Below, piece after piece: positions 44,935-48,056 of a stretch of DNA of 48,597 nucleotides. Positions within the stretch are counted from its first letter, which is position 1. Every line of letters starts with the position of its first letter. This stretch comes from a virus, in IMG/VR virus record IMGVR_UViG_3300033551_000007, positions 1 to 48,597 of that record; one strand, given 5' to 3'. The notes under the pieces are model-generated. The model was not told where the DNA came from, did no database searches, and worked only from the letters and a program-made list of their open reading frames with translations. A program made the translations under genes and the position numbers.

Positions 44935-46206
44935 ATGGCTACCCCCGAAGAACGCGCCCGCGCCGGGATGCTGCGCACGATGGGCCTGGACAACAAACGG
45001 CCGGACGCTTGGGCCGAGTACGGCTACAAGGAAAAGCTCGGATTCCAGGATTTCTACAACCTGTATACGCGGCACGGCGTGGCGGCGGGCGTGGTCGATC
45101 GGATCGCCGAGAAGGTCTTCCAGACCGCCCCATGGGTGATCCAGGGTACGAAAGACGACGAGCGGACTACCGAAACGGCGTGGGAAAAGGAGTTTGCGAC
45201 CCTGGCCGAGGACACGGACCTCTGGTGGTACCTCAAGGAAGCGTATGGCATGCGCATGGTCGGCGCATGGTCCGGCCTGATCCTCAAGTTTGCCAACGGC
45301 AAGGACGGCGAGACTCTGGCCGACGCAGTGACCGGCTCGCCTGTGCTCGAAGACCTGGTGCCGGTATGGCGCGGCCAGCTCCAGCCAGCCACCCGCGACG
45401 CCCTGGGCAACGTGACGATGTGGAACTACACGCCGACCGGCTTTGACGCCACGGACCTCGAAAACAGCCCACCGGTTCAGCTGCACCCTGACCGCCTGTA
45501 CATTGTCGGCGACTACAAGCGCGGGCGGTCGATGTTAGAACCCGGCTTTAACGCGTTCGTCGACATGGAGAAGGTGACGGGCGGTTCTGGCGAGGGTTAC
45601 CTGAAGAACGCGGCGCGCCAAATCCATATCAACTACGAGTCCGACGCGGAACCGACTAAGCCAGGTCAGCCCGACGACGAAGTCGCCGAAGAGTTGAACC
45701 AGCAGGCCAAGGCCTTGAACACCCGCCAGGACTTGGTACTGGCTACTCAAGGTGCCGAGGTGGGTATTCTCTCTGCGGCTCTGCCCGATCCTGAAAAGCC
45801 GTTCACCGTATCGCTGCAGGTCGCCATGGCGTCGTTCCGTACGGCCGCCCGCCTCGTGGTCGGCAGCCAGACCGGCGAGCGTGCCAGTGTCGAAGATATC
45901 CGCGATTTCAACGAGCGCTGCCAGGGTGACCGCGAGGGCGAAGTGGCCCGGGAGATTCGCGGCATGGTCCGCCACCTGGAGCGCGTGAAGGCGATCAAAC
46001 CCGCAGGCCGCATTACTGTGATGTGGGACGACCTGGCCGAGCCGACCGCTACTGACCGTGCTGACCTGGCTTACAAAATGGCGCAAACCAACCAAGCCAA
46101 CACCAGTACTGGCGACCCTGTCTACAGCGCCGACGAAATCCGCATCGCCGCGGGGCACGAAGCCGGTGCGCCTCAGCCGGATCTGCCAGAAGACGAGGAC
46201 GTGTAA
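44935..46206 (+). CDS. Portal protein (DUF1073 type)
   Basis: 423 residues. YTRHGVAAGVVDRIAEKVFQTAPWV, EAYGMRMVGAWSGLILKFANG, VPVWRGQLQPA, HPDRLYIVGDYKRGRSMLEPGF, MASFRTAARLVVGSQTGERAS and DIRDFNERCQGDREGEVAREIR are typical of DUF1073 portals, the dodecameric ring for DNA entry. The 58 bases before it hold no clear promoter. Its stop TAA is followed by the gp7-like gene. Confidence 0.85.
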   Translation: MATPEERARAGMLRTMGLDNKRPDAWAEYGYKEKLGFQDFYNLYTRHGVAAGVVDRIAEKVFQTAPWVIQGTKDDERTTETAWEKEFATLAEDTDLWWYLKEAYGMRMVGAWSGLILKFANGKDGETLADAVTGSPVLEDLVPVWRGQLQPATRDALGNVTMWNYTPTGFDATDLENSPPVQLHPDRLYIVGDYKRGRSMLEPGFNAFVDMEKVTGGSGEGYLKNAARQIHINYESDAEPTKPGQPDDEVAEELNQQAKALNTRQDLVLATQGAEVGILSAALPDPEKPFTVSLQVAMASFRTAARLVVGSQTGERASVEDIRDFNERCQGDREGEVAREIRGMVRHLERVKAIKPAGRITVMWDDLAEPTATDRADLAYKMAQTNQANTSTGDPVYSADEIRIAAGHEAGAPQPDLPEDEDV

Positions 46207-48056
46207 TGGGCCAGCCTATTCTGCCAACCAACGAAGCCGACCCCTCTGGTCAAGCGCGGCGCGAACGGGGCGCCATGAACGAAATGGGCAAGCGCGTGCG
46301 CCGGTGCGGCAAGGCGTACCGCGATGCCCTCTCGCAGATCCAGTTTCTCGCCGTGAACGTCGAGCGCTATGAGTTCCTGACCAGTGTTGACGCTATCGAT
46401 CTGCTGCTGGCTGACTTGGCGCGTATCGTTGACGCGACGATGAACGAAGGCGGCCGGTGGCTGTTCACCGGTTACGTGCGCCCGGCCTATCAGCAAGGCA
46501 CGGCCAAGGCGAACGCCAGTATCGCCAACCAGTCGAAACTGTATGCCGATGCCCGGTCGCTTGAGCAGCTGTTGACCTCGCCGCCGTACCTGAAGCGCCT
46601 TTCGCTGTTGCGCGGGCGGATCTTCGAGAAGATGGAAGGCATCACGGCGGACGTCCAGCAGACGCTCGCCTCGACGCTGACCCAGGGCCTGGCCGACGGG
46701 GTGGGGCCGCTCGAAATCTCCAAGCGGATCACCGAATCGACCGGGATTGTCGAGCGCCGGGCCAACAACATCGCACGGACAGAAACGGGCGAGGCGCTGC
46801 GCGAGGGCCGTCTGGCCGAGACGGAGGACGCCCGGTCGATCGGTGTGAACGTGGGCGTGATGCACTTGAGTGCGCTGAGTCCTACCACAAGAATTTCGCA
46901 TGCACGCAGGCACGGGGGTATTTTTTCGGTTCAGGAAGAGCGCGCTTGGTATGCACAAGACGGCAACCGGTACAACTGCTACCTGCCTGGAACGCGCGTG
47001 GCAGGCCGTTTCATAGCAGGTTCAAAAGCCCGTTACGAGGGGCCTGCCGTACGTCTCGTGACTGCTTCGGGATACGACCTGCGCGTTACCCCGAATCACC
47101 CCGTGATGACCGCTCGCGGGCTTCTGCCGGCCGCAGAACTCCGCAAAGGCGATCACCTTGTCACGCACCGCCCCCAGGTCGAAGCTCCCGCCGGGGGCGG
47201 TGACCTGTATGGTCAACTGCGAGAAGCCCCGATTGAGGAAGTCTTCCGTTCGCTTGTGGATCTCGGCCATTCGCTGTTTGTCGGGGTGACTGCTGTAGAT
47301 TTCCACGGCGATGCCGCGCACATCGAGGAGGATATCCACGTTGTAGTGGCCGATCGGGTACTGCCCCTGGCAGTGGACGCCCACCTCGCGCAGTGCTTGG
47401 ATGAGTTCAAGTTCGTACTTGCCGACTCGACGGCTGCCGGTAAGGGCTCGCAGGCGCTTAGTTTCCGCCGTGTCAATTCGGCCCCGACTAGCCTCGTGGG
47501 CGGGGGCGGTGACGGCGAATTTGCCGCGACCCTTCCGCAGCAGCGCGGCCGCGGAACGACTTCGCGAACCTACCCCGCGTTCGGCAAACCATCGGTTCAA
47601 TGTAATTCGAGACACGCCAGTCTCAGCGCTGATCTGCTGGACCGGGACCCCGCTCTCGTGCCGGGCGATCAAGGCCTCAATATCGAACCGATCGGACAGC
47701 TTCGGGGCGAGGTTCTCGAATCGCAGGCCACGCTCGTCGAGAAGCCACTGGTAGAGGGTCCTACCGGACACTTGGGCGGTGTCCGCGACCTGCTGGAGCG
47801 ACATTCCGCCACGGCACAGCTCGATGAGGTGATCGAGGTCAGCGAGTTCTCGTTTAGTGGGCATGTTTACGACCTTGAGGAATTATCAGGCCTTATGATA
47901 GCGAATGGTGTAATGGCGAGCAACTGCAAATGCTCCCCGTCTGAGATACTGCTGAACGATGACGGTACCCCCGCTTTCCCGGATGTGGTGAAACGCACCC
48001 AGGCTGCCCGGGCGCGGTTCGTTGAGACTGCCGAACGTGGCAAGTCAGAGCGTTAG
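46206..48056 (+). CDS. SPP1 gp7 / Mu gpF-like head protein interrupted by an intein
   Basis: 616 residues as translated, 300 without the intein (258-573). Extein: GKRVRRCGKAYRDALSQIQF, GLADGVGPLEISKRITESTG, ERRANNIARTETGEALREGR and SPTTRISHARRHGG belong to the minor head protein family of SPP1 gp7 and Mu F, which bind the portal. The intein splits the conserved NRYN-CKCSPSE motif (NC[RK]C in relatives) before its first Cys. Converges with the minus-strand gene that spans the contig ends. Confidence 0.88.
   Translation: MGQPILPTNEADPSGQARRERGAMNEMGKRVRRCGKAYRDALSQIQFLAVNVERYEFLTSVDAIDLLLADLARIVDATMNEGGRWLFTGYVRPAYQQGTAKANASIANQSKLYADARSLEQLLTSPPYLKRLSLLRGRIFEKMEGITADVQQTLASTLTQGLADGVGPLEISKRITESTGIVERRANNIARTETGEALREGRLAETEDARSIGVNVGVMHLSALSPTTRISHARRHGGIFSVQEERAWYAQDGNRYNCYLPGTRVAGRFIAGSKARYEGPAVRLVTASGYDLRVTPNHPVMTARGLLPAAELRKGDHLVTHRPQVEAPAGGGDLYGQLREAPIEEVFRSLVDLGHSLFVGVTAVDFHGDAAHIEEDIHVVVADRVLPLAVDAHLAQCLDEFKFVLADSTAAGKGSQALSFRRVNSAPTSLVGGGGDGEFAATLPQQRGRGTTSRTYPAFGKPSVQCNSRHASLSADLLDRDPALVPGDQGLNIEPIGQLRGEVLESQATLVEKPLVEGPTGHLGGVRDLLERHSATAQLDEVIEVSEFSFSGHVYDLEELSGLMIANGVMASNCKCSPSEILLNDDGTPAFPDVVKRTQAARARFVETAERGKSER
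47022..47864 (-). CDS. Antisense homing endonuclease: two HTHs plus PD-(D/E)XK core
   Basis: 280 residues, entirely within the intein, on the other strand and in exact codon register with it. HTH 1: SLQQVADTAQVSGRTLYQWL (22-41). HTH 2: PVQQISAETGVSRITLNRWF (74-93). A basic linker follows (RSRSAAALLRKGRGK). From 150, YELELIQALREVGVHC, IGHYNVDILLD (Asp177) and GIAVEIY (Glu188), then RTEDFLNRGF form a Vsr/EDxHD-like fold. E-x-Y stands where E-x-K is usual. ATG 47864 has AAGG eight bases upstream and a candidate promoter. Equally long antisense frames over other genes lack such domains, so the call rests on motifs. Confidence 0.75.
   Translation of the reverse strand: MPTKRELADLDHLIELCRGGMSLQQVADTAQVSGRTLYQWLLDERGLRFENLAPKLSDRFDIEALIARHESGVPVQQISAETGVSRITLNRWFAERGVGSRSRSAAALLRKGRGKFAVTAPAHEASRGRIDTAETKRLRALTGSRRVGKYELELIQALREVGVHCQGQYPIGHYNVDILLDVRGIAVEIYSSHPDKQRMAEIHKRTEDFLNRGFSQLTIQVTAPGGSFDLGAVRDKVIAFAEFCGRQKPASGHHGVIRGNAQVVSRSSHETYGRPLVTGF
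47895..47923 (-). promoter_or_regulatory. Candidate promoter for the antisense endonuclease
   Basis: Minus strand: TTGCTC, 17-base spacer, TATCAT, 30 bases before ATG 47864. It lies inside the codons of intein block G and the splice junction, so it would be present only when the intein is. Confidence 0.4.

Follow-up and report, generated by a model that had tools for sequence, protein, structure and literature searches.

The window analysed here, the whole 48,597-base record of the virus IMGVR_UViG_3300033551_000007, carries a head morphogenesis gene interrupted by an intein, and the complementary strand of this intein carries a nuclease gene. We consider it very probable that the intein is of the homing kind and that its endonuclease, instead of being an in-frame domain, is encoded by a gene of its own on the antisense strand. 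Both genes, selection on the two strands, codon avoidance and a presence/absence polymorphism were established by computation. In the proposed mechanism, the endonuclease gene would lie between splicing blocks B and F, where intein endonucleases are normally found. The sense strand would encode the head protein precursor, spliced via Cys1, Asn316, and Cys+1, and the antisense strand would encode helix-turn-helix (HTH) segments and an EDxHD/Vsr nuclease, expressed from its own promoter and ribosome site. The nuclease would cut intein-free head genes near the N/C codon, and repair of the cut would copy the intein together with its nuclease. Such an in-register overlap would be possible because every nuclease codon that makes a sense stop has synonyms. 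A broader reading, which we favor with some reserve, is that this intein is one of a widespread class of mobile inteins with two folds on the same base pairs, the active site of the nuclease and a structured subdomain of the sense strand with a DFHGD motif, each of them selected; the class would have arisen at least twice (EDxHD and LAGLIDADG), both times in the sole register that can be opened by synonymous choice alone.

Head gene and intein

The following features define the sense strand of the locus:

46206..48056, + strand: MuF/SPP1 gp7-like head morphogenesis ORF, 616 aa precursor, interrupted by the intein (Pfam PF04233, 2.7e-12; PHROG 758, 2.5e-88)
46977..47924, + strand: intein of 316 aa, from Cys1 to Asn316 and followed by Cys+1 (Pfam Intein_splicing, 3.7e-6)
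46977..47186, + strand: N-terminal half of the splicing (Hint) domain, blocks A to B (pLDDT mostly >90; strong sense-strand selection over most of it)
47811..47924, + strand: C-terminal half of the splicing domain, blocks F and G (GHVYDLEELSGLMIANGVMASN; pLDDT >90; sense-conservation z down to about -18)

The N-extein ends in RYN and the C-extein begins with CKCSP, placing Cys+1 within the CKC motif of the extein. An intein-free MuF homologue is found in Phage TPWB-08 (L018). The first-pass annotation had described a gp7-like intein that keeps all splicing blocks and has no endonuclease motif in its own frame, and our analysis bears out both points. The nucleophile at position 1, the TxxH of block B, the C-terminal Asn, and the +1 residue are all present in the window (block B, TPNHPVMT; block F, GHVYDLEE). 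Residues C1, T38, H41, G48, and N316 are invariant across 70 inteins, Intein_splicing is matched in 70 of 70 relatives, Cys occupies the +1 position in 96 of 96, and the intein profile matches the KlbA and RecA intein structures. A Pfam scan of the sense frame gave no endonuclease family, the one consistent match being Intein_splicing. The penultimate His of block G is replaced by Ser in the window (Ser in 63 and His in 22 of 96 relatives), so the efficiency of splicing is uncertain; this His varies among active inteins.

Antisense nuclease

Five features were located on the opposite strand:

47022..47864, - strand: putative homing endonuclease gene, 280 aa, ATG to stop, wholly inside the intein
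47580..47828, - strand: two HTH segments, residues ~13-52 and 54-95 (HTH_7, 4.5e-11; HTH_23, 3.3e-9; model helices)
47187..47429, - strand: Vsr/EDxHD-like nuclease core, residues 146-226 (profile, fold, and conserved residues)
47873..47876, - strand: AAGG resembling a Shine-Dalgarno site, 8 nt upstream of the antisense ATG (weak, and not among the motifs of the strict set)
47895..47923, - strand: promoter-like TTGCTC - 17 nt - TATCAT within block G (scores 8/12)

An antisense protein with two HTH segments and a Vsr/PD-(D/E)XK-like core, in a frame confined to the intein, had been proposed from the letters of the window, and profile and fold searches agree with this description. HTH_7 and HTH_23 each match two stretches of the protein. 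The nuclease domain of the single window sequence has a weak match to MTES_1575 (0.06); a family profile built from 73 relatives significantly matches PDB 3r3p, the catalytic domain of I-Bth0305I (2.9e-6), and 3hrl, an endonuclease-like protein (6.5e-6). The AlphaFold2 model of the 280-aa protein is confident (pLDDT 86.7), and its best Foldseek matches by probability are 3r3p (1.00), 3hrl (0.99), and 1vsr (Vsr, 0.98), with E-values of 0.007-0.03. In the core, E151, Q168, Y174, N175, D177, A186-V187-E188, and R205 are invariant or nearly so; the alignment shows no variation at Y174, N175, and D177, and almost none at E151 and E188. The acidic catalytic residues E151 (75 of 77 loci), D177 (78 of 78), and E188 (76 of 77) are located on helix 1, a strand, and a strand, respectively. 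H193 is kept in 56 of 77 loci, its register against the xHD of the I-Bth0305I EDxHD motif not being established. By fold, profile, and catalytic residues, the antisense protein is a predicted Vsr/EDxHD-like nuclease.

The antisense start codon, ATG, is read from the bases opposite the His codon of block F. In the part of blocks F/G that precedes it, 36 of 67 relatives have a Shine-Dalgarno motif, where synonymous shuffling predicts 12.6, and 46 of 67 have a -10-like hexamer, against 23.6 +/- 3.1 expected. In the window itself both signals are modest, and a stricter promoter scan did not call its TTGCTC-17-TATCAT. We infer antisense expression from these sequence signals.

Alleles at the insertion codon

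In one group of Gordonia phages, the extein flanks are ~90-99% identical over 400 nt on each side of the insertion site. The site is empty in ChadMasterC, and Kewpiedoll and Angelicage carry different inteins at the same codon, each with an antisense EDxHD nuclease; a third intein type occupies this codon in Sitar, Thing3, and SchottB. Across Gordonia Vividuovirus and related MuF genes (L207 to L210, L011, L014, and L019), one codon is either empty or holds one of three inteins, which provides a ready system for testing homing and intein competition. We infer a homing function for the antisense nuclease.

It is improbable that the antisense gene, although real, encodes a DNA-binding regulator or another kind of nuclease that serves, for example, head gene expression or superinfection exclusion. 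The two HTH segments would suit such a role, and phage nucleases can exclude competing phages, but the gene cannot be separated from a mobile element that is inserted at one extein codon and polymorphic with an empty site, its catalytic residues are strictly conserved, and its closest solved relative, I-Bth0305I, is a homing enzyme. Somewhat less probable again is a functional nuclease in an intein that spreads mainly via ordinary phage recombination. The inteins of L087 and L089 are 99.5% identical, with left exteins 57-73% identical and a right flank 96-100% identical, and general recombination could explain this pair because the identity runs on through the right flank. Against such spread stand the empty site and the three inteins at one codon between exteins nearly identical on both sides, and the maintenance of the catalytic residues implies selection for activity. 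Homing by the antisense nuclease is the reading that we prefer.

At the left boundary of its intein, the L087/L089 pair shows a recombination junction; that the inteins of this pair have diverged less than the exteins also speaks for mobility. In L010 (Sejanus), L126, and L129, related inteins with an antisense nuclease appear to be inserted elsewhere, close to the conserved Cys/His region of MuF or of protease-fused head proteins, which suggests more than one target site.

Relatives and constancy of the arrangement

More than 100 related loci were gathered from viruses, phages, prophages, and plasmids. One IMG/VR scan returned 218 relatives, 80 of which were kept, and other scans together with phage, plasmid, and genome collections added more. 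Profile scans of contig collections used sub-alignments of closer members; genome contigs gave no match when scanned with a single sequence and 11 matches when scanned with an alignment. At 104 loci spanning 34-70% GC, one continuous sense ORF runs through the nuclease in a single register, the intein and host gene being unsplit, with the exception of L120, a weak 48-residue match without intein blocks. In this register, nuclease codon position 3 lies opposite sense position 1, and the remaining two antisense phases are closed.

The antisense layout was found in every full-length relative examined. No intein with the sense DFHGD motif was found to lack the antisense nuclease (11 of 11 loci picked on the sense strand have it), and no free-standing full-length relative was found in 796 genomes, where the full-length ones are all antisense-embedded. 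The free-standing matches in these genomes span the nuclease or the HTH part only, and ~29 of 40 nuclease-only matches carry stops in the opposite in-register frame. Among homologous inteins the antisense frame is almost never broken; in L076 alone (L076:2746-3432, from a virus with 34% GC), the sense intein frame is intact and the nuclease frame is interrupted by stops, a clear sign of a decaying endonuclease. The first-pass annotation had named two refuting outcomes, a failed profile or fold match and homologous inteins with a broken antisense frame; both were checked for, and its proposal passed. The arrangement is apparently old and widespread. The annotations deposited for the fetched phage and plasmid regions contain no antisense gene inside the intein, and standard gene callers therefore miss it; the intein itself is annotated by some depositors, such as those of phages Snoke and Sitar.

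Selection on the two strands

Substitutions were counted by codon position in 18 pairs of relatives. At sense positions 1/2/3, the exteins have 1051/806/2276 substitutions, the nuclease middle 862/281/562, and the remaining intein ends 159/76/250. The peak is at sense position 3 in the exteins and at antisense position 3 in the nuclease (chi2 346, p=3e-77), and over the greater part of the insert selection acts on the antisense frame. For the pair formed by the window and its closest relative, the counts are 18/8/75 in the exteins and 22/3/5 in the nuclease middle. The catalytic residues show free synonymous wobble (N175, AAC42/AAT36; D177, GAC42/GAT36; E151, GAG39/GAA36). Compared with a shuffle of synonymous codons, blocks A-B and F are under strong sense selection; opposite nuclease residues 62-178 and most of 193-235, sense conservation does not exceed that of the synonymous nuclease-codon shuffle.

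The nuclease codons TTA, CTA, and TCA would create sense stops, and all three can be replaced by synonyms; codon choice therefore suffices to keep the sense frame open and places no constraint on the nuclease sequence. Local codon usage predicts 304.9 of these codons in the nuclease genes and 1 was observed; in loci below 50% GC, 158.1 were expected and none was observed. The coding status of the antisense gene is close to certain. That it is a chance frame, or a passively conserved shadow of the intein in GC-rich DNA, has practically no probability and is refuted by the codon avoidance and the codon-position substitutions: high GC often leaves in-register antisense frames open and the window has other long antisense frames, but this frame is also open in loci of 34-45% GC, its substitutions peak at antisense position 3, its catalytic residues are conserved with antisense-synonymous wobble, its fold matches homing and repair nucleases, and sense-stop codons are avoided.

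A 261-aa antisense frame over the N-extein (46173-46958, - strand), which matches no family significantly, has the look of a chance frame in GC-rich DNA and contrasts usefully with the nuclease.

Sense strand inside the insert

Between the two halves of the splicing domain, the sense strand contains two regions:

47223..47411, + strand: structured sense subdomain facing the nuclease core, intein residues 83-145, with motifs IEEVF..L and DFHGD (pLDDT ~81-94 in an AlphaFold2 model of the intein, a value on which antisense constraint in the input alignment also bears)
47418..47768, + strand: sense linker predicted to be disordered, intein residues 148-264 (pLDDT <50; no sense selection beyond synonymous expectation)

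The sense motif D[FL]HGD[GA] lies opposite the catalytic [VI]AVE[IV] and is conserved beyond synonymous expectation (z of -9 to -21). A second sense motif nearby, IE[ED]VF.[AS], is likewise selected on its own. The sense strand is apparently not a passive shadow throughout, the motif that faces the active site being independently selected on this evidence. No known-domain match was found for the DFHGD subdomain. The same base pairs seem to encode two folded regions, because residues 83-145 are predicted to be structured and DFHGD is selected; the conservation of this island may otherwise be a DNA- or RNA-level signal. The disordered linker lies opposite the half of the nuclease gene that encodes the HTH segments.

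Second antisense enzyme family

The MuF intein of Sitar, Thing3, and SchottB (L208:1449-2273, L209, and L210:1364-2188) has an in-register antisense frame of the LAGLIDADG type. This frame matches I-MsoI (3.8e-4) and resembles annotated phage endonucleases (7e-7); its match to Pfam LAGLIDADG_3 is sub-threshold (0.26). Substitutions in the nuclease at sense positions 1/2/3 number 43/4/9, and of 50 changed codons, 41 leave the antisense residue unchanged, against 5 for the sense residue. No further antisense LAGLIDADG inteins were found in the viral contig scan. The Sitar-type intein appears to be an independent second instance, in which an unrelated enzyme family uses the same register.

Significance and comparison with known systems

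Many claims of antisense overlap have only ORF length behind them, and demonstrations are rare. The loci described here supply many natural examples of antisense protein genes that overlap completely, with strong, quantitative evidence that both strands are selected. The arrangement would be a new way of freeing a mobility enzyme's expression from that of a late structural gene: the enzyme would have its own promoter and perhaps its own timing, and yet stay physically inseparable from the splicing element. Other so-called mini-inteins could hide more antisense nuclease genes, and the origin of sense/antisense dual coding becomes testable. No published description of an antisense-strand intein endonuclease was found in the literature searched, in which subscription papers were sparsely covered.

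The HEN domains of inteins occupy one conserved insertion site (PMC6801210). Conventional homing inteins, with LAGLIDADG or HNH in frame between blocks B and F, resemble the present intein in splicing fold, endonuclease slot, and mobility logic, but their endonuclease lies within the precursor polypeptide, whereas here it is a separate gene on the opposite strand. The enzyme I-Bth0305I belongs to a group I intron (PMC3943268), and hence its gene need not share bases with a translated splicing element. I-Bth0305I (PDB 3r3p) and Vsr share with the antisense protein the catalytic fold, the E/D/E residues, and the coupling to DNA-binding segments; the gene described here, unlike that of I-Bth0305I, overlaps an opposite-strand protein-coding frame. 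Fractured genes with split inteins and free-standing endonucleases were reportedly described by Dassa and colleagues in 2009 (cited in PMC10448857). In these, too, the endonuclease gene is apart from the intein polypeptide and inside the intein locus, but the host gene and intein are broken, whereas here the sense frame is open through the nuclease gene. In the case of nuclear rDNA group I introns, some endonuclease genes are antisense, on the strand opposite the splicing element as in the present intein. These introns need no dual protein coding because the intron is untranslated, whereas here both strands must encode protein.
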